Assembly (NCBI GenBank): GCA_934402315.1
Contig: CAKRTS010000012.1
Location: 1 to 64,000 of the forward strand
Direction of reading: 5' to 3'
DNA length: 64,000 nt
From: an uncultured Acetatifactor sp.
Lineage (GTDB): Bacteria; Bacillota; Clostridia; Lachnospirales; Lachnospiraceae
The notes beneath the pieces are model-generated. The model worked only from the letters and a program-made list of their open reading frames with translations. It made no database searches and was not told where the DNA came from. Shown here in pieces: positions 43,466 to 55,305 of the stretch. The position numbers and the translations under genes were made by a program. Position 1 is the first letter of the stretch. Each line of letters starts with the position of its first letter.

Positions 43466-44119
43466 CTATCCCTCAAGCTCTCCCGTCACGCGGAACCTCG
43501 TCCACTTTCCGATATTGACGGCGTGATCCCCGACCTTCTCCAGATACTTCGCAATCATCAGATTGTCGACCACTCTGTCGGCGTCCAGCGTCTGCCCCTG
43601 GATCGCATGCATCATGTCCTCCTTGACCTGATTAAACAGTCCGTCCACAACATCGTCATTGTCGATGACCATGCGCGCCGTCTCGGCATCACCCTCGACA
43701 AACGCCTCCACCGACTCCCGAACCATGGTTCTCGCCTCATCCATCATCTTCAGGATCACTTCGTCCGACTCCGTCTGCTGCACAGGCTCCTTCCTCCGAA
43801 GAAACAGCTCTGCCATATCCCCGACATGATCGCCGATCCTCTCCATGTCCGTCACGACCTTCAGGGCTGCCGTCACCAGCCGCAGATCCCTCGCAACCGG
43901 CTGCTGCTTTATCATCAGTGCAAGACACCTCGCCTCAATGCTCCTGAGCATATCCACCATCTGCCTGTCACTGTCGAGCAGATTTTCCAGACTCTCAACA
44001 TCATTTGCCTTTGCCGCCAGCAGGAGCTTGTCATAGCCGGTCTCCACAAGCTCTCCCATCTCCGCGACCTTCTCCTTGAGCTGCTCCAGCTCCTGGTCAA
44101 ACACAATTCTTGGTGCCAT
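43466..44119 (-). CDS. phoU: Phosphate transport regulator PhoU
   Basis: A 217-residue protein of two three-helix bundles, each with the metal-binding EXXXDXXXD-like pattern (MERIGDHVGDMAELF in the first, LEKVGDHAVNIGKW in the second). It links Pst transport activity to PhoR and keeps the regulon off when phosphate is plentiful. The gene follows pstB by 20 bp in the standard operon order. Confidence 0.95.
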   Translation of the reverse strand: MAPRIVFDQELEQLKEKVAEMGELVETGYDKLLLAAKANDVESLENLLDSDRQMVDMLRSIEARCLALMIKQQPVARDLRLVTAALKVVTDMERIGDHVGDMAELFLRRKEPVQQTESDEVILKMMDEARTMVRESVEAFVEGDAETARMVIDNDDVVDGLFNQVKEDMMHAIQGQTLDADRVVDNLMIAKYLEKVGDHAVNIGKWTRFRVTGELEG

Positions 44120-44139
44120 AATAGCATTTCCTCTCTTTC

Positions 44140-44898
44140 TCAGCCAAACCGCCCCGTAATATAGTCCTCTGTCCGCTTATCCTTCGGACGCGAGAACAGC
44201 ATCCCCGTCTCCCCGAATTCCACCACTTCCCCGACAAGGAAGAATGCCGTATCATCGGAGACTCTCGCCGCCTGCTGCATGTTATGCGTCACAATGACTA
44301 CCGTATACTTCTTTTTCAGGCTCTCCATGAGCTCCTCTATCTTCAACGTGGAGACAGGGTCGAGCGCAGAGGTCGGCTCATCCATCAGAAGTACCTCCGG
44401 CTCCACCGCAAGCGCTCTGGCGATGCAGAGTCTCTGCTGCTGTCCACCGGAAAGTCCCAGCGCGGATTTATGCAGTCTGTCCTTTACCTCATCGAAGATT
44501 GCCGCACCCTTCAGCGCATTCTCCACGATCTCGTCCAACTTCTGCCTGCTCTTCATCCCGTGTAATCTCGGCCCATAGGCTATATTGTCATAAATGCTCA
44601 TCGGGAACGGATTCGGCTGCTGGAATACCATTCCGACCTTCTTTCGGAGCAAAGTCGTGTCCACCCGCTTATCGTAAATATCTTCTCCGTCCAACAGGAT
44701 CTTGCCGTCAATCTTCACATTTTCGACCAGATCGTTCATCCTGTTGATGCATTTTAAGAAGGTCGACTTGCCGCAGCCGCTTGGTCCGATAAAGGCGGTA
44801 ATCGCATGATCCTTGATGTCCATATTTACACTTTTCAGCGCGTGGTTCGTACCGTAGTGAAGGTTCAGGTTCCGCACTGTAATCTTATTCTTTTCCAT
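44140..44898 (-). CDS. pstB: Phosphate ABC transporter ATPase
   Basis: The 252-residue ATPase of the PstSCAB importer has Walker [10 protein letters not shown], the Q-loop [11 protein letters not shown] typical of PstB, signature LSGGQQQR and Walker [13 protein letters not shown]. The length and the ending GRFG fit the family. It lies between pstA and phoU. Confidence 0.97.
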
Positions 44899-44924
44899 AG
44901 AATTACTCTCCTGTGTTCTTCCTG

Positions 44925-45809
44925 TTATTTGCGAATGCCCTTTGTCACAAGCTTCAAAAGCAGATTGATGAGCAGCACAATGATAATCAGCACACAGCCG
45001 ATACCAAACGCCGTCTCATACTCACCATTCTGCATCTGGAGATAAAGCTCAATCGTCAGCGTTCCGCCGGTCTCCATTGCCTTGTGTCCAAGCTTTGCGA
45101 TATTTTCAGTAAAGGAGCCCGTGAGCTTCGGCAGAAGTCTCGCACTTCCCGCCGTAAAGAGAAGCGCCGCCGACTCACCCACGATTCGTCCCACGGCAAG
45201 AATCACGCCGGTCAGGATGCCCGGCATCGCCGAGGGCAGAAGGATCGTCCGGATCATATACCACTTTGTCGCTCCCATTCCCAGCGCGCCGCTGCGATAG
45301 CTGTCAGGCACGGTGCGAAGCGCCTCCTGCGTGTTTCTGACGATCAGCGGCAGCACCATCAACGTCAGTGTCAGTGCGCCGTTAAGCAGCGAATAGCCAA
45401 GTCCGAGCACGTTTCCGAAAAAAACCATACCGAACAGTCCGAAGATGACAGAGGGAATACCCGAAAGCGTCTCTGTCGTAAACTCAATCAGATGCACCAG
45501 CTTTCCGGGCTTCGCGTACTCATTCAGATAAATGGCACCTCCGACGCCGACCGGTGTTGCGATCAGCAGCGTAATGATAATAATGTAAAGCGTATTGACC
45601 AGATTTCCCGCAATGCCAACCGTTCCCTTCAAGGCGCTCGTCACGCTCGTAAAGAAGGAGGGCGACAGCTTATGAAAGCCCTTCATGAAGACATACCCGA
45701 TGATACCGAGCAGAAGGAACACAGAGATGGACGCTGCCCCGTAGATTGCTGCAAGCAGAAATGTCTCCGCCGGTCTCTTTCTCTTTCTGTATAAGGTCGA
45801 ATCAAACAT
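44925..45809 (-). CDS. pstA: Phosphate ABC transporter permease
   Basis: A 294-residue integral membrane subunit with six helices. The ATPase-coupling loop [22 protein letters not shown] is followed by the helix [15 protein letters not shown]. It overlaps pstC by eight bases and pairs with it to form the phosphate channel. Confidence 0.95.
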
Positions 45810-46764
45810 CCTTCTTCGCTCCTTCCTTCAGGATCCGGTTCAGCACGACATTGATAATCATAATGAAGACAAACAGAACCAGTCCGATCGTAAACAGCAT
45901 CTGTCTGTGTGTTCCCTGCGAATATCCCATCTCACTGACAATCGCCGTTGTCAGGAACCGGACGGAGTTAAACGGCAGAGGCGCGTTCACACTGCTGCCG
46001 GAGACAAGCGTAATCGCCATTGCCTCACCGATCGCTCTTCCCACGCCCAGCACAACCGCTGTGACGATTCCCGACTTTGCCGCCGGAAGAATCGATTTGA
46101 AAATCGTCTGTATATGGGATGCCCCGAGCGCAAGCGATGCCGCCTTGATGCTCGGATGAACCGCGCGTATCGAGGTCTCGCTGATATTGATAACGGTCGG
46201 CAGGATCATGATGGCAAGGACGATCACGGCGGACAGGAGATTTGCGCCGCCGGTGAACTGGTGTGTCTTTGATCCCGCGAACACCTTCAGCTCCAGCTTA
46301 TACATCAGCGGATTCAGGAGGTAAATTCCGAGCAGTCCGTAGATTACGGAGGGAATACCCGCCAGCAGCTCGACTGCCGGCTTTACGATACCCGCCAGAC
46401 GCTTGTCAGAAATCTCCGCAAGAAATACCGCGGTCAGGATACCGACCGGCACACCGATCAGAACCGCCAGCGTCGTTCCCACGATTGATGTCAGGATGAC
46501 ATAGAGGATTCCGAATCTCGGCTCCGCCGCCGTCGGCTTCCAGACGGTTCCGAACAAGATCTCCTTTAAGCCCACCTTAAAGATTGCCGGTGTACCGCTG
46601 ATAATCATGTACAGGGTGATCGATGCCACCGCAAAGATAGCAGCCAAGGCGCAGACTGTAAAAATTGCCTGCGCCACATGCTCTACGATCGCCTTATTTC
46701 TTCTGCTTCCCATCACACTCTGTGATGCTTTGTCAGTTACTTTCTTTTCAGGCTGTATGCTCAT
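45802..46764 (-). CDS. pstC: Phosphate ABC transporter permease
   Basis: The 320-residue channel subunit is paired with PstA. The N-terminal tail is cytoplasmic; the first helix is FTVCALAAIFAVASITLYM. The coupling loop AVHPSIKAASLALGASHIQT precedes GIVTAVVLGVGRAIGEAMA. The start is ATG 46764, nine bases after AAAGGGA; a GTG 18 bases upstream would overlap the RBS. Confidence 0.94.
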   Translation of the reverse strand: MSIQPEKKVTDKASQSVMGSRRNKAIVEHVAQAIFTVCALAAIFAVASITLYMIISGTPAIFKVGLKEILFGTVWKPTAAEPRFGILYVILTSIVGTTLAVLIGVPVGILTAVFLAEISDKRLAGIVKPAVELLAGIPSVIYGLLGIYLLNPLMYKLELKVFAGSKTHQFTGGANLLSAVIVLAIMILPTVINISETSIRAVHPSIKAASLALGASHIQTIFKSILPAAKSGIVTAVVLGVGRAIGEAMAITLVSGSSVNAPLPFNSVRFLTTAIVSEMGYSQGTHRQMLFTIGLVLFVFIMIINVVLNRILKEGAKKDV

Positions 46765-46789
46765 ACTCACATTCCCTTTCACGGGTGAT

Positions 46790-47704
46790 TTACTTTACGG
46801 TAATCAGTCCGACCTGTGCTGCTACCGCCTGACCCTCTTCGCCGAGGACATAGTCAAACCATGCGCGGACAAGCTCATTCTGTTCGGAAATCTCGCCCTT
46901 GGTTGCCATAACGAAGGGTCTGCTCAGGAAATAATTTCCGGCTTTGATATTCTCAGCTGTAGCCTCTACACCCTCCAGTGCCAGTGCGATCACGCTGTCG
47001 TCTACCACATCCAGGGAAACATAGCCGATTGCTCCGGGAGTGGATGCAACCTTTGCCATAACAGCGCCCGTGCTGTCAAGTTCATTTGCGTAAGCGCAGC
47101 TATCGATCACGTCAAGAAGCTCCTCGAAGGCTCCTCTGGTTCCGCTGCCTGCCTCACGTCCGACAACAATGATCGGTGCGTCTGCTCCGCCGACCTCAGA
47201 CCAGTTTGTAATCGTGCCTGTGTAAATGTCTGTCAGCTGCTGCTTTGTAAGTCCTGTCACCGTGTTGGTCGGGTCTACGCACACTGCAATTCCGTCGATC
47301 GCGACAATGTTCTCCACCGCGCCGTTATTCTTCTCTTCATCCTTGAGGTTTCTGGAAGAATTTCCGATGTCTGCGCTTCCGGAGGTAACTGCCTCGATAC
47401 CTGCGCCGGAGCCTACAAATTCCGCTGTCACAGTCACATTGGGGTACTTCTCCATAAAGCTCTCCGCCAGAGCGTTTGCCAGCTTTTCCATGGACGTGCT
47501 GCCGACCATCTGGATGCTGCCAGACAGTTCCTTGCTGCCGCTTCCGATGCTATCCGTCTGCGTTCCGCCGGTTGTGCTCTGGGATGACTGATTCTGTGCA
47601 TCGCTTGCCTGGCTGCTGTTTGATGCCGTATTTCCACAGCCTGTCATGCAGGCAGCTGCCAGTACACATGCGCTCAATAATGCGGCTAATTTCTTTGTTT
47701 TCAT
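46790..47704 (-). CDS. pstS: Phosphate-binding lipoprotein
   Basis: A 304-residue substrate-binding protein of the Pst system. The N-terminal signal ends in a lipobox (CMTGC, Cys about residue 22), so it is lipid-anchored outside the membrane. A Ser-rich linker is followed by the binding domain with VGSTSMEKLANA, FVGSGAGIEAVTSG and GREAGSGTRGAFE, loops that bind phosphate in this family. ATG 47704 follows GGAGGAG. The first gene of the pst operon, it is preceded by Pho boxes. Confidence 0.96.
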   Translation of the reverse strand: MKTKKLAALLSACVLAAACMTGCGNTASNSSQASDAQNQSSQSTTGGTQTDSIGSGSKELSGSIQMVGSTSMEKLANALAESFMEKYPNVTVTAEFVGSGAGIEAVTSGSADIGNSSRNLKDEEKNNGAVENIVAIDGIAVCVDPTNTVTGLTKQQLTDIYTGTITNWSEVGGADAPIIVVGREAGSGTRGAFEELLDVIDSCAYANELDSTGAVMAKVASTPGAIGYVSLDVVDDSVIALALEGVEATAENIKAGNYFLSRPFVMATKGEISEQNELVRAWFDYVLGEEGQAVAAQVGLITVK

Positions 47705-47808
47705 AATCTCCTCCATTTTCCGGGGCTTTTCTCTCCCCTTGACACTTCTTTCTTTGTCTTACGATGTTCATCTTAGCAGAGGGAAAAAGAAGGTAATACC
47801 ATGGAGGC

Positions 47809-47836
47809 GTAATATCTTTGTAAGAACAAAGTAAAA
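47809..47836 (-). promoter_or_regulatory. Pho box array before pstS
   Basis: On the minus strand TTTTAC, TCTTAC and TATTAC occur at exact 11-bp steps (complements at 47831, 47820 and 47809). The array abuts the stop codon of the interrupted amidase gene. Confidence 0.6.
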
Positions 47837-48344
47837 TCATCCGCCCCAGACCGTGGCGAGAATGCCGTCGGCGATCGCCCGTGCAATCTCATCAAAGCGC
47901 TCGTCAAAGAGCTGGTTATCCGCATCGGTGTTGATAAATCCGACTTCCACCAGAACGGCAGGCATCTCGGTCCGGTTCAGAACGACCAGATTTCTTCTTT
48001 CGTTCACGCCAAGGTTGGTAAAGCCGACCGCCTCCAGCCTTGTATTGATGTTATAGGCGAGGGTTGCCGCCCGACTGTAAAGGTTATAGACCAGAGTTTC
48101 CACCCCGGAATACTGATTCGGGTAGGGGCTGGAATTGCGGTGGATGGAGACAAAATAGTCCGCGCCGACAGCGTTTGCCTCCATCGCCTTCTGATAGGGG
48201 GACTCATAGATGTCTGTCGTCCGCGTGTAGTAGACATCCACTCCGTTCGCCTCAAGAATCGATCCAATCGCCAGTACAAGCGCAAGCGCATCATCCTTCT
48301 CCTGACGTCCGTTGTATGTAGCGCCGGGATTTGCGCCGCCATGA
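47837..48344 (-). CDS. N-acetylmuramoyl-L-alanine amidase, 3' part of an interrupted gene
   Basis: This part encodes nearly all of an Amidase_3 enzyme, which cuts the bond between MurNAc and the stem peptide in peptidoglycan. After the HGGA of the zinc motif come NGRQEKDDAL (second zinc ligand Glu), VSIHRNSS (His ligand) and VLVEVGFI (catalytic Glu). The first nine codons and the start lie 2.6 kb upstream at 50938-50978, across a recombinase element. As it stands only a TTG without RBS (48379) could start it, adding element-derived residues and lacking the DAG of the motif. Rejoining at the 15-bp repeat gives a 177-residue enzyme with no signal peptide, of the type used for lysis from inside (endolysin or mother-cell amidase). 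Confidence 0.85.
48330..48344. repeat. Attachment-site core, left copy
   Basis: TTTGCGCCGCCATGA is identical to 50938-50952 and lies in the amidase zinc-motif codons. It is one end of the recombinase element. Confidence 0.85.
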
Positions 48345-48394
48345 GTGGGCAGTTTTTTGCGGTAATTTGAGGTTGACAAAACAGCAATGGGATG

Positions 48395-48958
48395 TTATTC
48401 TCTAACAAAGGGAAGCGGTTTTTTACCACTCGTCTGACATTCAGTCCTGAGTGGGGTACTCGCTTCTCTTTTTATGTCCACCAGATCATATAAGTACATC
48501 CTCCCATCCTTTGTGCAGTTAATCAACAGACACGCAGAGTAAATATGATACATCTCCGTCCTCTCCTCATTTTCAAAGACCGGAATTGCAAAACGTGTCT
48601 GATAATAATACCATCCCTTTCCCGCTCTCTCGGAATGCCTCTCCTTACGATTTTCGCAAAACTGTTCATTTGTTGCTATTTCCACCATTTGAAGGATTCC
48701 CTGTGCTGCATTCGCCTTTGCCTTAGCCCTCGCACCTTTCAGTCTTTTGGTATACTCGGATCCCTTGTATTCATCCGGGAGTTCCCTTCCGATATGGACA
48801 ATCCTCTCTGTTTCCATAATTTTGACAATTTCTCCAACATATTGTTCCAGATAGCTCTCCACAGCATTCCAGTCAATATTCTGCTTGTTTCTAAACAGTA
48901 TCTCCGGCAGAACCACTACCTTGTGCCCCGCCTGATCCTCCACAATCTGTATTTTCAA
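48395..48958 (-). CDS. Uncharacterised element-borne protein
   Basis: A 187-residue protein starting at TTG 48958, about ten bases after GAGGGG, overlapping the end of the recombinase gene by 68 bases. The segment GARAKAKANAAQGILQMVEIATN, then GWYYYQTRFAIPVFE and MYLYDLVDIKREASTPL, resembles a domain I recall from mobile elements of Clostridia; its function is unknown to me. No DNA-binding or catalytic motif can be named. Its coupling to the recombinase suggests a role in the element's life cycle or in the host. Confidence 0.6.
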   Translation of the reverse strand: MKIQIVEDQAGHKVVVLPEILFRNKQNIDWNAVESYLEQYVGEIVKIMETERIVHIGRELPDEYKGSEYTKRLKGARAKAKANAAQGILQMVEIATNEQFCENRKERHSERAGKGWYYYQTRFAIPVFENEERTEMYHIYSACLLINCTKDGRMYLYDLVDIKREASTPLRTECQTSGKKPLPFVRE

Positions 48959-50540
48959 TTTCTTTTTTCCCCTCTTTTTCTTCATAAAATTTATCAAACG
49001 CTTCCCCTGACTCTCCCGAGAATTTGTAACAGATCACAATTCTTCTATCCTCATATATTCTGATTTCCCGAATCATTTCAATGACGGTTTCCCTGTCAAG
49101 CCGCTCCACATCCTTCGTTTCCAACAATCGCCTGATCCACGGGATACGAAAGACCTCCGTTTCATCTGCCATTTCCCTCTCCTGCATAGCCTTCATCTGC
49201 ATGAACAATAATGTTTCTTTTTTTACATAATCCTGCCTATACGCAGCGAATTCCTCTCTGGAAATCAGATTCTCTTTATAATCCTCATAGAGCTCCTTTT
49301 TACGTTTTTGAAGCTTTTTCCTCTCCGCCTCTATCCTTTGTCTCTCGAATTCACCCTTTCTTCTTTCACTGCCTCTTGCCCCCTGTTCCGTAACCAGTTG
49401 TTCCAAATCGTTTGTATTTTCCAAAATAACCCGCAGATCAGCGCTGACAACCGTCTCAAAAACGTCACCGGAAACTTTGTGCGGAGTACAATACCGTTTC
49501 CCACAGCGGACATAGGTTCCGCAGTAATAATCATTGTCTTTCTTCACCATAGCCCTCCCGCAGTCGCCGCACTTTACCAGTCCCGCGAAAATATTTGCGG
49601 GTGTGCGAAAATCAAGCTGCCTTGTTCTACGCTGTAGAAGCTCCTGGGTTTTTTCCCATATCTCTGCCGTAACAATCGCGTCATGTGTTCCCTCGACAAC
49701 AATCCACTCATCACAGCCTTTTACTCTGGCCTTGCCCCGCATGCGCTGGCTTTTTTTACCTTGTACCATATTTCCGGCATACATTTCATTGTGGAGAATC
49801 CGGTTGACTGTTGAATAAGTCCAGTAAGAAGTGTTTTCTAATCGATTGGAGTTTCTATAGTTCGCCCCGCCCAGCCTCTTATACTCGGACGGACAGACAA
49901 TTCCCTCCCCATTGAGAATATTTGCAATGCTCTGCTTTCCGCAGCCTTTGAGATATAGTTCAAAAATTCTTCGGACAACTGCGGCCGCATAGTCATCGAC
50001 CACCAGTCTGTTCTTATCGCCGGAAGCCTTTTGATACCCATAAGACGCAAATGCCCCTATAAACTCCCCCGCCTCCTGCTTAGCCCGGAGAGATGCATGA
50101 ATCTTATCGGATATATCCCTTGCATACTGCTCGTTGAATATATTCTTGATCGGCAGAAGAATATCATACGCCTTCTGGGCGCTGTCTATGTTATCCGTGA
50201 TGGAAATAAACCTTACACCCTTGTCCGGGAAATAGCGTTCCAGATACTTTCCGGTTTCAATATAGTCGCGCCCAAAGCGGGACAAATCCTTCACGATCAC
50301 ACAGTTGACTCTTCCCGCCTCGACATCTCTGATCATACGCTGAAAGGACGGGCGCTTAAAATTTGTACCCGAAAAGCCATCATCCACATAAACGTCATAC
50401 ACTGTAAATTCCTCTTTTGATTTCAAGTAACCTTCTATCAGCTTTTTCTGATTTCCGATGCTGTCACTCTCCGCCTTGTCCCCATCTTCTCTTGACAATC
50501 TGACATATTCCGCCACATAAAAGCACGCTTGCCCCCTCAT
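48891..50540 (-). CDS. Large serine recombinase
   Basis: The 549-residue site-specific recombinase has an N-terminal catalytic domain with the nucleophile Ser in YVRLSREDG (about residue 16) and the conserved SRFGRDY. A recombinase domain (ASYGYQKASGDKN, SIANILNGEGI), a zinc ribbon (CGDCG then CGTYVRCGKRYC) and a long coiled coil (RRKGEFERQRIEAERKKLQKR) follow. Such enzymes integrate and excise elements at short identical cores without host factors. ATG 50540 overlaps the stop of the 54-residue gene (ATGA), so they are translationally coupled. It most probably catalyses movement of its own element into and out of the amidase gene. Confidence 0.95.
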   Translation of the reverse strand: MRGQACFYVAEYVRLSREDGDKAESDSIGNQKKLIEGYLKSKEEFTVYDVYVDDGFSGTNFKRPSFQRMIRDVEAGRVNCVIVKDLSRFGRDYIETGKYLERYFPDKGVRFISITDNIDSAQKAYDILLPIKNIFNEQYARDISDKIHASLRAKQEAGEFIGAFASYGYQKASGDKNRLVVDDYAAAVVRRIFELYLKGCGKQSIANILNGEGIVCPSEYKRLGGANYRNSNRLENTSYWTYSTVNRILHNEMYAGNMVQGKKSQRMRGKARVKGCDEWIVVEGTHDAIVTAEIWEKTQELLQRRTRQLDFRTPANIFAGLVKCGDCGRAMVKKDNDYYCGTYVRCGKRYCTPHKVSGDVFETVVSADLRVILENTNDLEQLVTEQGARGSERRKGEFERQRIEAERKKLQKRKKELYEDYKENLISREEFAAYRQDYVKKETLLFMQMKAMQEREMADETEVFRIPWIRRLLETKDVERLDRETVIEMIREIRIYEDRRIVICYKFSGESGEAFDKFYEEKEGKKEIENTDCGGSGGAQGSGSAGDTV

Positions 50541-50701
50541 GTTTCTCTCATTCCTCCGCAAAATACAGTCATGGATTTCTGAATCTCCGGAGTACTTTCT
50601 ATATGTATTCTGATAATGCGTTCCACAAATTCTGTCGTGCTCTCCTTTCCTAAAAAAATGCGCTCCAGCTCATACCTCGCTGCTAACCGCTTCTTATTCA
50701 T
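50537..50701 (-). CDS. 54-residue element protein, candidate directionality or accessory factor
   Basis: ATG 50701 begins a 54-residue basic protein (MNKKRLAARYELERIFLG start) ending CGGMRET. It is predicted to be mostly helical and its stop overlaps the recombinase start. Small genes directly before serine recombinases sometimes encode recombination directionality factors, which switch the enzyme to excision. No family was recognised. A GGAGAG site lies 11 bases upstream. Confidence 0.55.
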   Translation of the reverse strand: MNKKRLAARYELERIFLGKESTTEFVERIIRIHIESTPEIQKSMTVFCGGMRET

Positions 50702-50796
50702 AAGACTGTAGACTCTCCGCAATGCTCATCCTTAAAGACAATATACTGTCCACAATTTGTACAATATGTATAGCCGGAATTACTGATATAACCGTC
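50698..50796 (-). pseudogene. Start-less CxxC reading frame before the 54-residue gene
   Basis: After a TAA the frame reads 32 residues including YCTNCGQYIVFKDEHCGE and ends in a TGA that overlaps the next ATG (ATGA). The Cys pattern looks like half a zinc ribbon. No start codon exists, so it is a truncated or frameshifted gene, or a non-standard start is used. Confidence 0.35.
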
Positions 50797-50885
50797 TTAA
50801 ACGTTCCAATTCAGGGGATCAACTATCAGAATGATAAAGATGTCAATTCTCAGAAAACGAGGGAAGCTATCCCTTTGATACGCTA

Positions 50886-50914
50886 ATTATACCCGACCGC
50901 ATAATATTTTTCAA
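50886..50914 (-). promoter_or_regulatory. Promoter of the recombinase operon
   Basis: TTGAAA (complement at 50909-50914) and a perfect TATAAT (complement at 50886-50891) are 17 bp apart, starting 24 bp inside the element's end and reading inward. Confidence 0.75.
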
Positions 50915-50937
50915 TACGGTAATTTATTTTCCGCAAC

Positions 50938-50952
50938 TTTGCGCCGCCATGA
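50938..50952. repeat. Attachment-site core, right copy
   Basis: It is identical to 48330-48344. It lies at codons 9-13 of the amidase frame that begins at 50978. Confidence 0.85.
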
Positions 50953-50978
50953 CCGGCATCAAGTGCTACAAGTGCCAT
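50938..50978 (-). CDS. N-acetylmuramoyl-L-alanine amidase, 5' part of an interrupted gene
   Basis: ATG 50978, after GGGAGG, encodes MALVALDAGHGGA, the start and first zinc motif of Amidase_3, and then meets the element. In the interrupted state the frame runs on into the element as KLRKINYRIEK and stops at 50883. The N-terminus without signal peptide resembles Bacillus CwlC as I recall it (a DPGHGG start with PGATGNG following). The RBS is part of a terminator-like hairpin. Confidence 0.8.
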
Positions 50979-50979
50979 A

Positions 50980-51025
50980 TAAAAAGACCTCCCACATAAC
51001 TTTCTATAAGCTATGCGGAAGGTCT
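50980..51025 (-). terminator. Terminator of the ABC operon that also covers the amidase RBS
   Basis: The arms AGACCTTCCGCATAGCTT and AAGTTATGTGGGAGGTCT pair with few mismatches around a small loop, followed by TTTTT and then ATATG. The GGGAGG RBS of the amidase lies in the 3' arm. Confidence 0.75.
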
Positions 51026-51078
51026 GGTTCTGTGTCTGTCCTGTTACTGTTTTTGATTTTATGTCTGAACGATGCTTG

Positions 51079-52845
51079 TCAGACTGCGAACTGGCTGTTG
51101 TACAGGTTTGCGTAGAAGCCGCCCTTTGCCAGAAGCGTCTCATGGCTGCCCTGCTCAATGATATTGCCGTCCTTCATGACGAGAATGATGTCCGCCTCCT
51201 GGATGGTTGACAGTCTGTGCGCCACGATAAAGCTGGTTCTGCCCTCCATCATGGTTGCGAACGCATTCTGAATCTTTAACTCGGTTCTGGTATCGATGGA
51301 CGAGGTCGCCTCATCCAGAATCAGCATCGGCGGCAGACAGAGCATCACGCGTGCGATACAGAGCAGCTGCTTCTGTCCCTGCGAAAGACTTCCTCCGTCC
51401 TCCGTGATTACCGTGTTATACCCTTCCGGCAGCCGCTTGATAAAGCTGTGCGCATGTGCCGACTTTGCAGCCGCGATCACCTCTTCATCGGTTGCATCCG
51501 GCTTGCCCATGCAGATATTGTCGCGTATCGTTCCGGCTCTCAGCCATGTCTCCTGAAGCACCATGCCGTAGCTGGTGCGCAGGCTGCCTCTTGTCAGATG
51601 GCAGATGTCGTTTCCGTCAACCGAGATCCTGCCGCTGTTTACATCATAGAAGCGCATCAGAAGGTTAATCAGCGTTGTCTTTCCGCAGCCGGTAGGCCCC
51701 ACGATGGCAACCCTCTGTCCCGGCTTTACCTCCAGATTGAAATCCTCGATCAGCTTCTTGTCCGGCACATAGCTGAAGTAAACGTTTTCAAGCTTTACAT
51801 TGCCCTTTGCGTGCTCAAGCACCTTCGCATCCTCTGCATCCGGCACCTGCGGCTCCTCGTCGATCAGTTCAAAGATCCGCGCCGCGCAGGCAAGCGCATT
51901 CTGCAGCTCCGTCACAACGCCGGAAATCTCGTTGAAGGGCTTTGTGTACTGGTTTGCGTAGCTTAAGAAGCAGGACAGGCGGCCTACGCTGATACCGCCG
52001 CGGATCGCCACGAACGCTCCGAAAATTCCCACGCCCGCATACACAAGGCTGTTGACAAATCTCGTACAGGGGTTCGTCAGCGAAGAGAAAAAGATCGCCT
52101 TGAGGGAACACTTTTCCAGTCTTCCGTTAATTTCCGCGAACTGCTCCCTGACCGCCGTCTCCCGTGAAAAGGTCTTTACCACCTTCTGGTTGCCGATCAT
52201 CTCCTCGATCAGCGAGGTCTGCTCTCCCCTTGTCTCGGACTGCAGCTTGAACATCGAATAGGTTCTCGTCGCAATAAACTTTGCCACGAGGAAGGATACC
52301 GGCGTGATACATATGACCACCAATGCAATAGGAACGTTGGTGACAAGCATGAAGATCAGCGTGCCGATGATGGTTAAAACACCGGTGAACAGCTGCGTAA
52401 AGCCCATCAGCAGACCGTCCGCAAAGGTGTCTACATCCGCGATGACACGGCTCACAATATCTCCGTAGGCATGCGCATCCAGATACTTCAACGGCAGAAT
52501 CTCCAGTCTGCGGAACGCATCCTCCCGGATGTCCTTGACAACATGGTAGGTAATATGGTTATTGCAGGTGTTCATGACCCACTGCGCTATAGCCGTGGCT
52601 AAGATCGCAATGCCGATCTTTTTCATGATTGCAAATACCGCGGTAAAGTCCACCGCGCCTTTTCCGAGAAGAAGATCGACGGCATCTCCGGTAAGGATCG
52701 GCACATACAGCGTGAGCACGACCGTCACCGCCGCCAGCAGAAGCGAGAGTCCGACCAGCAGCCAGTATTTCCGGATGTAATTCAAAACCTTTTTCATCGT
52801 TGCCATCTGCCCCGATCTCTTATTCTTTGTCTCCAGATCAGCCAT
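51079..52845 (-). CDS. Heterodimeric ABC exporter, catalytically competent subunit
   Basis: The 588-residue half-transporter has six N-terminal helices (residues about 30-310) and an ATPase with GPTGCGKTT and the complete Walker B LILDEATSSID. The His switch is in VAHRLST. The signature is altered to LSQGQKQ. With the partner upstream, which lacks the catalytic Glu, it forms the usual asymmetric exporter in which only one ATP site hydrolyses. ATG 52845 follows GGGAGGG and overlaps the partner by eight bases. Relatives export drugs, lipids or peptides. Confidence 0.92.
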   Translation of the reverse strand: MADLETKNKRSGQMATMKKVLNYIRKYWLLVGLSLLLAAVTVVLTLYVPILTGDAVDLLLGKGAVDFTAVFAIMKKIGIAILATAIAQWVMNTCNNHITYHVVKDIREDAFRRLEILPLKYLDAHAYGDIVSRVIADVDTFADGLLMGFTQLFTGVLTIIGTLIFMLVTNVPIALVVICITPVSFLVAKFIATRTYSMFKLQSETRGEQTSLIEEMIGNQKVVKTFSRETAVREQFAEINGRLEKCSLKAIFFSSLTNPCTRFVNSLVYAGVGIFGAFVAIRGGISVGRLSCFLSYANQYTKPFNEISGVVTELQNALACAARIFELIDEEPQVPDAEDAKVLEHAKGNVKLENVYFSYVPDKKLIEDFNLEVKPGQRVAIVGPTGCGKTTLINLLMRFYDVNSGRISVDGNDICHLTRGSLRTSYGMVLQETWLRAGTIRDNICMGKPDATDEEVIAAAKSAHAHSFIKRLPEGYNTVITEDGGSLSQGQKQLLCIARVMLCLPPMLILDEATSSIDTRTELKIQNAFATMMEGRTSFIVAHRLSTIQEADIILVMKDGNIIEQGSHETLLAKGGFYANLYNSQFAV

Positions 52846-54610
52846 TCTGGTTCCCTCCCTTCCTTGCAGCCGCCTCTGCCTTTAATCTCTCTTCGGGGTA
52901 CTGCGAATAATAAATTTCCTTATATACTTCACAATCCTTCATCAGCTCGTCATGCGTTCCGATGCCCGCCATCTCTCCGTCATCCAGAACAATGATCTTG
53001 TCCGCATGGCGGATCGTCGATGCCCTCTGGGAGACAATGAAGGTTGTCGTATTGCCCTCCAGCTCCCGCAGCGCCGCCCTGAGCTTTGCGTCCGTTGCAT
53101 AGTCCAGCGCCGAGGCACTGTCATCTAAGATCAATATCTCCGGCTTTCTGACCAAGGCTCTGGCGATCGTCAGTCTCTGCCGCTGTCCGCCCGAGAGATT
53201 CTTTCCGTTCTGGGCAACCCTTGCATCCAGCTTACCGTCCTTGCCCTCGACGACCTCCCTTGCCTGTGCGACATCGATCGCCTGCCACATTTCCTCCTCC
53301 GTGGCATCCGGCTTGCCCCACTGCAGATTACTGCGGATCGTTCCCTTGAACAGAACCGCCTTCTGGGGTACCATGCCGATCCGGTTTCTGAGCTCGTCCT
53401 CCGGCATTGCCTTCAGATCCGTTCCGTCCAGACGGATCGCACCCTCTGTGACAGGATAGAAGCCGGGGATCAGATTTACCAAAGAGGACTTACCGGAGCC
53501 TGTACCGCCGATAATTCCGACCGTCTCACCCCTGTTTACCACAAAGTTCATGTCGTGGAGCGTCTCAGCGCCTGCGCCCGCGTAGGTCAGCGATACATGA
53601 TCGAACTCCAGGAAGGGTGCATCCTTTCTCTTCTCGGAAACGCGGTATGCGTCCGGCAGACTCTCCTCATTTTTAATCTCAAACACACCGGCGACACGGT
53701 CTGCACAGGCAAGCGCCTTCGTGATCGTGATAATCAGGTTTGCCAGCTTTACAAGCTCCACCAGAATCTGGGACATATAGTTGATGATGGCAATGACCTC
53801 TCCCTGTGTCAGATTGCCGACATTGACCTGAACCGCCCCGACGTAGATCAGCGCAATGATCGCTCCGTTGACGATGACATAGGTCACAGGGTTCATGACC
53901 GCACTGATCTTTCCCACAAAGACCTGACTGTCCGCCAGCGCCTTTGTATACCGCTGGAACTTTCCTGCCTCCTCCTCTTCCTTATGGAAGGCACGGATGA
54001 CACGCACACCGGTCAGATTTTCCCTTGTCACGCCGAGCACACGGTCGAGTCCCGCCTGCACCTTCTTGTACAGCGGCATCGTCCACACCATGATGCCGAA
54101 GACCACAATCGCAAGAAGCGGAATCGCCACAACAAAGATCAGCGCGCTCTTCACATCGATCGTGAACGCCATGATCATTGCGCCGAAGACAATGATCGGG
54201 GAGCGGAGAAAGAGTCTGAGCACCATATTCACGCCCGACTGCACCTGATTGATGTCGCTGGTCATGCGGGTGATCATGGTCGAGGTGCCGACCTTGTCTA
54301 TATTGGTAAAATTAAGCCCCTGAATGTGATCGAACAGAGCCTGTCTGAGCTTTGTCGAAAATCCGACCGCCGCCTTTGCCGCAAAGAACTGTGCCGTCAC
54401 CGAGGACAGCAGCCCGACCAGCGCAAGCGCGAGCAGACATGCGCCCATCTTGCCGATATAGCCCATGTCGGAATCCGCGATACCCTTGTCGATGATATTT
54501 GCCATGACAAGCGGCACCAGCAGTTCAAAAAAGGCCTCCAGCAGCTTGAACAGCGGTGCAAGTATGGATTCCTTTTTGTAATCCTTCAAATACTTCATCA
54601 AACGTCCCAT
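52838..54610 (-). CDS. Heterodimeric ABC exporter, degenerate-site subunit
   Basis: The 590-residue half-transporter has Walker A GGTGSGKSS and signature LSGGQRQR, but Walker B ends LILDDSASALD (Asp instead of the catalytic Glu) and the H-loop His is Gln (VSQRAST). This is the hallmark of the degenerate subunit in BmrCD- or TM287/288-like exporters. The membrane domain lies at about 15-310. ATG 54610, after GGAGTGG, overlaps the end of the phosphopantetheinyl transferase gene by 13 bases. Confidence 0.92.
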   Translation of the reverse strand: MGRLMKYLKDYKKESILAPLFKLLEAFFELLVPLVMANIIDKGIADSDMGYIGKMGACLLALALVGLLSSVTAQFFAAKAAVGFSTKLRQALFDHIQGLNFTNIDKVGTSTMITRMTSDINQVQSGVNMVLRLFLRSPIIVFGAMIMAFTIDVKSALIFVVAIPLLAIVVFGIMVWTMPLYKKVQAGLDRVLGVTRENLTGVRVIRAFHKEEEEAGKFQRYTKALADSQVFVGKISAVMNPVTYVIVNGAIIALIYVGAVQVNVGNLTQGEVIAIINYMSQILVELVKLANLIITITKALACADRVAGVFEIKNEESLPDAYRVSEKRKDAPFLEFDHVSLTYAGAGAETLHDMNFVVNRGETVGIIGGTGSGKSSLVNLIPGFYPVTEGAIRLDGTDLKAMPEDELRNRIGMVPQKAVLFKGTIRSNLQWGKPDATEEEMWQAIDVAQAREVVEGKDGKLDARVAQNGKNLSGGQRQRLTIARALVRKPEILILDDSASALDYATDAKLRAALRELEGNTTTFIVSQRASTIRHADKIIVLDDGEMAGIGTHDELMKDCEVYKEIYYSQYPEERLKAEAAARKGGNQNG

Positions 54611-55305
54611 TTTGCCACTCCTGTAATCTTTCTCATTGTTTTCCCCATTTCTGCGCGCGGCACTGCCTCCGCCGTACACACCGCAAGCGCGTACCCTTCC
54701 GGTGCCGGGAAATCCGCCCAGCAGACCTCATATGTCTCCCGCTTAAGCGCGGGAATGACGCCCTCTCCCGTCAGCTTTCCGTAGGCTTCCTTCCGCGTCC
54801 ACATCTCGAAAAACAGCCTCTGCCGCCCGCTTTCCCCGCACCTTTCCAGCTCCTCATACTCACTCTCCGTGAAAAAGCGCCTCGCCAGCTTCCTGCTGTC
54901 GGTGTCTTTAAGCTGCTGGATGTCTGCGCCGATCCTCCGCTCCGAGACTGCGCAGATCACATAGCTCCCGGAATGGGAAAGGCTGAAATGCAAAGGAAGC
55001 TCACTGATCTCCGGCTTGCCGTGCGCCCCGAACCGGTAGTGCAGGGGGATCGGCTGTTCCGCCTCCGTCAGAAGCTCCTCCGGCGAACAGTGCCGTAGCC
55101 CCTCGATACGGATGCCGTCCCGGCAGTCCCTTGCCAGCTTCTGTAATAAAAGCCCTGCCCCGAGACTGGCGGCGCGGCTCTTCGGCTCTCCGATCTTAAG
55201 TGCCTTCTCATACCGCACAGCATCGACCCTCTGTTCCGCCCTCTTCAAAAAACCGGCAGGCTCCCCCGCCTCTTCCAGATTCAACAGATATATTCCTACC
55301 GCCAT
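54598..55305 (-). CDS. 4'-phosphopantetheinyl transferase, Sfp type
   Basis: The 235-residue enzyme moves phosphopantetheine from CoA to a Ser on carrier proteins. FSLSHSGSYV, the Mg-binding GADIQ, FTESEYEEL and FFEMWTRKEAYGKLTGEG are the family motifs in the expected order. The start is ATG 55305; upstream frame extension lacks an RBS. No polyketide or non-ribosomal peptide genes are in the window, so the target could be fatty-acid ACP or a cluster elsewhere. It overlaps the ABC exporter gene, suggesting a shared transcript from aspS. Confidence 0.88.
   Translation of the reverse strand: MAVGIYLLNLEEAGEPAGFLKRAEQRVDAVRYEKALKIGEPKSRAASLGAGLLLQKLARDCRDGIRIEGLRHCSPEELLTEAEQPIPLHYRFGAHGKPEISELPLHFSLSHSGSYVICAVSERRIGADIQQLKDTDSRKLARRFFTESEYEELERCGESGRQRLFFEMWTRKEAYGKLTGEGVIPALKRETYEVCWADFPAPEGYALAVCTAEAVPRAEMGKTMRKITGVAKWDV

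Follow-up and report, generated by a model that had tools for sequence, protein, structure and literature searches.

The window analysed here comprises 64,000 nucleotides (nt) of contig CAKRTS010000012.1 from an uncultured Acetatifactor sp. (assembly GCA_934402315.1) and contains an Amidase_3 gene split in two by an intervening element of about 2.6 kb. The N-terminal part of the amidase (MALVALDAGHGGA...; 50938–50978, minus strand) starts at an ATG at 50978, and the C-terminal part (HGGANPGA... to the stop codon; 47837–48344, minus strand) matches Amidase_3 (PF01520, E 8e-40) in a complete and open frame. A perfect 15-bp direct repeat, TTTGCGCCGCCATGA, lies in the HGG zinc-motif codons at both ends of the element, with an attR-side copy at 48330–48344 and an attL-side copy at 50938–50952, 2,608 bp from start to start. 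No other perfect repeat of at least 15 bp was listed in 47500–51500, and by our own arithmetic the chance expectation for a 15-bp repeat in 4 kb is about 0.008. Joining the flanks at the repeat produced a clean frame of 177 amino acids (aa), beginning MALVALDAGHGGANPGA. Both the repeat in the zinc-motif codons and the restored Amidase_3 frame were found as described in a first-pass annotation made from the sequence of the window.

That annotation had also suggested looking for the uninterrupted gene in relatives, and three natural alleles were identified in a public protein set: P0121, P0122 and P0123 differ from the joined 177 residues at 3, 3 and 4 positions, respectively, and begin at the same start. 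P0122 additionally has an in-frame leader nearly the same as that of the window. These near-identical uninterrupted proteins indicate that the empty site exists, in probably the same species; it may have been produced by excision, or the element may never have entered there. At related loci (described below) the two arms share a word of 10–12 bases in 12 of 32 cases, not always at the junction, and no word of 10 or more bases in the other 20. Since relatives' arms share less than 15 bp, the length of the repeat in the window is partly a local coincidence.

The element itself (48345–50952; 2,608 bp with one repeat copy included) contains three open reading frames (ORFs), all on the minus strand. 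The largest (48891–50561) encodes a large serine recombinase of 556 aa with Resolvase, Recombinase and zinc-ribbon (Zn_ribbon_recom) domains, in agreement with the serine recombinase predicted at first pass, and its frame is free of stops, whereas inactivating mutations had been named there as evidence against excision. A 61-aa ORF (50537–50722) overlaps the recombinase start and belongs to a conserved small-protein set. Because a small ORF with a common motif was present upstream of the recombinase at 64 of the 81 loci tested, it is the best candidate for a recombination directionality factor, a role that we infer. The third ORF (48395–48997; 200 aa from a TTG start, with an ATG at 48985) is found beside a subset of related recombinases and has 450 homologues at E ≤ 0.001 out of 509 candidates; its predicted fold (mean predicted local distance difference test score, pLDDT, 69) had no PDB match at E ≤ 0.001. 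Two of its homologues are P0001 and P0002, the latter almost identical to the ORF of the window minus an internal stretch of about 20 residues, which hints at variant elements. Searches of Pfam, NCBIfam and PHROGs assigned no family to the 61-aa or the 200-aa ORF, and attempts to place the small ORF yielded nothing credible.

No phage structural or transfer gene was detected among these three ORFs in the same three databases; the lack of transfer functions had been noted at first pass. That annotation spoke of recombinase-related genes only, to which the 61-aa ORF and the family-less 200-aa ORF are added here. A phage origin was considered and set aside, the matches in phage records being just 34–43% identical (ten matches listed), as was a plasmid origin (33.5–41.5% identical; 12 of 17 matches listed); one viral contig matches at 48% identity. 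An Rfam scan of the window gave no match. Reading of the sequence by eye revealed a sigma-A-like promoter (TTGAAA-17-TATAAT; 50886–50914, minus strand) at the left end of the element, pointing inward, and a −10-like box, CATATTGTA (50760–50768, minus strand), was noted 46 nt upstream of the 61-aa ORF.

The insertion sites of related recombinases were compared at the best 80 of 117 relatives from a genome scan (55–66% identical). As these loci were chosen by likeness to the recombinase of the window, what they say about targets concerns this clade. An Amidase_3 gene is broken at its HGG codons at 53 loci, and a pdaB-type polysaccharide deacetylase gene is broken at its FDAAWG catalytic motif at 23; two others (L018 and L062) lie beside a whole attP-like site, and two (L066 and L072) end at a contig edge. 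An earlier impression that about a third of the recombinases lie at unrelated sites was rejected, the 23 in question being pdaB-type genes, mostly on the opposite strand. The first-pass annotation had taken many unrelated insertion sites as an argument against programmed excision; the sites do differ, yet 76 of the 80 are in Amidase_3 or pdaB-type genes.

C-terminal halves are available for 49 of the 53 amidase loci (the other four show the N-half only), and all 49 match Amidase_3. Among them, 28 match CwlD (TIGR02883) at E ≤ 1e-35, 19 carry a CwlC-like motif, and two are unassigned: L019, which is truncated, and L054, whose score with the CwlD model (73 bits) is as low as that of the CwlC-like L046. 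A SPOR domain occurs in 13 of the 49, namely in the CwlC-like halves of at least 225 residues, and one CwlC-like relative shows a weak match (E 0.003) to 1x60, a SPOR structure from a sporulation-specific amidase. Of the 23 pdaB-type loci, seven have a C-half, six with PdaB (TIGR02764) as the best model at 191–202 bits and one (L026) a 57-aa remnant; half-genes score below full-length model cut-offs, and 16 pdaB-type and 4 amidase loci were classed by the N-half motif alone. The clade thus sits mainly in cwlC-like, cwlD and pdaB-type genes, and by model the split frame is that of a sporulation gene at 28 CwlD and 6 PdaB loci. In Bacillus, the mother cell is where cwlC, cwlD and pdaB act.

For the window gene itself, sporulation-gene status draws on its likeness to the CwlC-like relatives and on its promoter. 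A −10 box of the sigma-E/sigma-K type, CATAGCTTA (51007–51015, minus strand), was identified 37 nt upstream of the amidase ATG, with the −35 region viewed by eye only. The motif CATANNNTA, which we take to be the sigma-E/K −10 type, was found 25–60 nt before the start in 27 of the 39 amidase genes with a short N-terminus (unbroken, 19 of 27; broken, 8 of 12), as against 15 of 823 control ORFs from these loci (Fisher p 3e-31; both strands read, 26 of the 30 unbroken loci covered). A sigma-K model match at E ≤ 1e-50 was obtained in 40 of the 42 genomes compared, all of which are carriers; 33 of them give two matches, so that sigma-E cross-matches are included. The suggestion that the amidase resembles CwlC gains from this box and from the SPOR domain of 13 of the 19 CwlC-like broken relatives; a domain search found no SPOR domain in the 177-aa protein of the window, for which "CwlC-like" is a description and not a family assignment.

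How often such genes are broken was estimated from an unselected sample comprising 299 genomes from the family that includes G004. A CwlC-like gene at E ≤ 1e-30 is carried by 159 of them and is broken in at least 9, most sampled copies being unbroken. All nine listed matches that start at residue 6 or later are broken at HGG, and five of these nine genes have a related recombinase within the fetched stretch. Matches starting at the motif number at least 5 among 158 genomes for cwlD and at least 6 for pdaB (among 185 matching genomes, a figure that also counts other deacetylases), of which only G004 (L042) and G037 (L013) were confirmed at the sequence level. At L115:5513-6911 a CwlC-like gene is split by 1.4 kb with no related recombinase in the fetched stretch, perhaps by a decayed or non-autonomous element.

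Near-identical recombinases were observed across Blautia, Hominisplanchenecus, an Erysipelotrichaceae and Thomasclavelia. Within one genome, identical recombinases lie in cwlD and in a cwlC-like gene (L003 and L005), and a close relative of these (L008) is inserted in a pdaB-type gene. For three pairs of loci, synonymous divergence (dS) is 0.06–0.20 for the recombinase and 0.98–2.4 for the gene. Near-identical recombinases in different genes and genera, together with this low recombinase dS, indicate that the family moves horizontally.

The split genes were compared between loci with an apparently common insertion, in pairs chosen for similar gene and recombinase dS among the 45 closest pairs listed. 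The ratio of nonsynonymous to synonymous divergence (dN/dS) was 0.12 for L016/L025 (Fisher p 4e-7), 0.12 for L024/L029 (4e-8), 0.06 for L002/L079 (2e-20) and 0.07 for L023/L035 (4e-30); the pairs L016/L061 and L007/L017 have unequal dS. Because the contig of L002 is only 3.6 kb long, the shared insertion of L002/L079 is judged from the element and the C-half alone. Alignment of L041 (Parablautia muri) with L042 (Lachnospiraceae bacterium 10-1) gave seven collinear blocks of 71–76% identity across flanks and element, three of them through the element, and the two C-halves differ by 87 synonymous changes over 114 sites and 58 nonsynonymous changes over 444. Given this purifying selection between loci of apparently common insertion, the split genes are probably still in use.

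At the att sites, the arms adjoining the core form an inverted repeat, which is whole in L018. CA lies in the His codon of the amidases, whereas in pdaB it is complementary to the TG of the Trp codon; the two targets therefore have little in common beyond the short core. In L042 the attL copy reads GHGD, while HGG is intact in the attR copy; drift has thus altered the side that would be lost on excision but not the one retained in the rejoined gene, which is the best sign that split genes are used. These copies fit a crossover located at the His codon or to its left. On the attR side, L003 and L005, with their common recombinase, have different third bases in that codon, suggesting the same crossover position. 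At L018:4575-4800 and L062:7600-7900, a palindromic attP-like site made of the joined arms adjoins the recombinase with no split gene, and L018 has a second recombinase beside a pdaB C-half.

On this evidence, we consider it likely that the window holds a small mobile element that undergoes sporulation-linked excision, and that its serine recombinase integrates into genes for sporulation wall enzymes, in this case a CwlC-like amidase, at the conserved codons of their catalytic motifs. The recombinase would insert the element at these codons, and the element would stay quiet during growth. During sporulation, a directionality factor, for which the 61-aa protein is the best candidate, would turn the recombinase to attL × attR recombination in the mother cell, releasing a circle and restoring the amidase. 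The circle would be lost with the mother cell, and the forespore and spore would keep the element. We also lean, more cautiously, towards a broader reading in which the family is a mobile clade of minimal non-phage elements with an integrase specialised on codons for the catalytic motifs of spore-wall enzymes, which belong to two unrelated folds (Amidase_3 and NodB-type deacetylase). Such elements would hide in genes required by the dying mother cell alone and would excise in that cell, thereby costing the host little and being inherited through the spore.

Several points weigh against sporulation-linked excision. Neither an excised junction nor a circle was observed. Insertion at the motif, the clean joined frame, the empty-site alleles, the clade's targets, its mobility and the purifying selection can be read from the sequences; excision, its timing and the directionality factor are drawn from known elements. 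The statistics take no account of relatedness, and upstream of cwlD N-halves the exact box occurs in only 2 of 10 cases. The motif CATANNNTA was also found upstream of 15 of 63 small ORFs (63 of the 64 loci were counted), against a background of 7–9% and against 4 on the opposite strand; a mother-cell promoter for the small ORF was not counted, the box match of one clade being seemingly conserved coding sequence. The carrier genomes of L045 and L054 (2 of 42) lack a sigma-K match and two others give weak partial matches. In the unselected sample, four of the nine broken genes have no related recombinase in the fetched stretch, and two split genes look decayed (L019, 87 aa; L026, 57 aa). Finally, the evidence of selection comes from relatives' pairs, and the window's own insertion may be recent.

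The foremost alternative is a plain site-specific mobile element that uses the conserved motifs as attB and knocks the gene out, with excision rare and not tied to sporulation. Horizontal movement as seen in the three dS pairs, the identical recombinases in two amidases of one genome, the unbroken majority of CwlC-like genes and the two decayed split genes would all suit such an element. It fits poorly with targets of two unrelated folds, all of which, where classifiable, are sporulation types, and with purifying selection on the split genes. Moreover, in 24 clade genomes where no broken amidase had been recognised beside the recombinase at first reading, 93 of 101 Amidase_3 matches start at profile position 1–2; five others start at 4–5, in open frames of 190–250 aa (CwlD/CwlC-like size), and the remaining three are partial and begin late (34, 128 and 141). 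We regard this alternative as possible but doubtful.

The first-pass annotation had favoured a domesticated, vertically inherited developmental switch. The pair L041/L042 looks like an old shared insertion and appears vertical, the window element lacks transfer and phage genes, and some targets are clustered on the recombinase tree: CwlC-like loci require 14 changes (shuffled mean 20.1) and the loci then unassigned ("none"), mostly pdaB, 11 changes (20.1), with 0 of 500 shuffles as low in either case. Set against this, CwlD-type targets are unclustered (22 changes, shuffled mean 22.8), near-identical recombinases occur in several genera, the broken state is a minority and uninterrupted near-identical alleles exist. 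A single history common to recombinase and host gene was accordingly not found for the family, and a fixed, vertically inherited device is very improbable. Expression of the C-half alone as a truncated amidase is scarcely credible: an in-frame TTG inside the window element does give a 180-aa ORF, but 21 of 49 relatives have an in-frame stop within the six codons before HGG, and the strand preceding the first zinc ligand would be missing.

The preferred reading, excision linked to sporulation, places the element beside known gene-splitting elements. In cyanobacteria, a serine recombinase excises the fdxN element from a developmental gene of nitrogen fixation, a process different from the one concerned here; the XisF model matches the recombinase of the window at 97 bits, far below its cut-off of 375. 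With skin, SPbeta, gin and yin the element shares its own large serine recombinase and direct end repeats that restore the gene. According to the cited extracts, gin in gerE of Bacillus cereus ATCC10987 is likewise a non-phage element that splits a sporulation gene at a short common core, carries serine recombinases and leaves its gene restored in sporulation (PMC5595907); it differs in spanning 28.6 kb with 31 genes and three recombinases and in being described in one gene, the present element being about 2.6 kb long with a single recombinase and having relatives in target genes of three types. The skin element in sigK of C. difficile has a large serine recombinase and a small directionality factor, CD1234, of 72 aa (PMC5025042, in the part cited), and in the skin of B. 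subtilis the gene for the factor, skr, overlaps the recombinase gene at its 5′ end (PMC6957869, likewise), as the 61-aa ORF does here; skin is prophage-like and lies in sigK, and the directionality role in the window is attributed by analogy. SPbeta in spsM, excised in sporulation, and phi12-5 in kamA are mobile elements with a serine recombinase in a mother-cell gene, as in the window (extract of PMC6957869), but are phages, whereas the window element has no phage gene. The yin element in yabG of Clostridium botulinum has a 14-bp repeat and a serine recombinase, with the excised form and circle present at all time points; it is prophage-like and, in the extract cited, reported from one strain (PMC10747680), unlike the widespread family described here.

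As far as anatomy tells, the working principle is the same, and the family is best read as a mobile sporulation-gene-intervening element of the skin/SPbeta/gin kind; what is new is its targets, the use of several targets by one mobile clade and its very small size. The extracts consulted name sigK, spoIVFB, spoVR, spsM, gerE, kamA and yabG as sporulation genes split by elements (PMC5595907, PMC6957869, PMC10747680), and exact-word matching of open-licence PMC texts returned no element in cwlC, cwlD or pdaB. One recombinase clade repeatedly strikes these three further gene types, mainly in Lachnospiraceae and in a few per cent of copies per gene. If the interpretation is correct, the family would be a natural experiment for asking why mother-cell genes are preferred by mobile DNA, and selection on the split genes would gauge truces between element and host. 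It would also urge caution in annotation, as split spore genes need not be pseudogenes, and would provide compact integrases that have palindromic attP sites and target conserved codons.

Relatives of the element vary in content. Paired small ORFs, toxin-antitoxin-like by eye, lie upstream of the recombinase in the 2.8-kb elements of L046, L047 and L049. Versions of 5.5–6.6 kb in cwlD (L016, L025 and L061) have extra ORFs between the gene halves; by eye, one resembles a D-Ala-D-Ala ligase, and L025 and L061 also have a response regulator-like ORF.

Upstream of the amidase in the window, an 18-bp stem-loop (50985–51025, minus strand; −27.6 kcal/mol, z −6.5) encloses the −10 box and the likely ribosome-binding site. 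It also resembles a terminator and could end the transcript of the upstream ATP-binding cassette (ABC) transporter, and a transcript begun at the sigma-E/K-type box would lack its 5′ arm. A general hairpin over the ribosome-binding site was rejected, with z < −2 in only 7 of 24 starts; strong stems are also present at L012, L082, L092 and L047. In the ORF list, read by eye, the split gene is flanked by a pst/phoU-like cluster for phosphate uptake and by two genes of ABC transporters (window positions 43466–47716 and 51079–54679).

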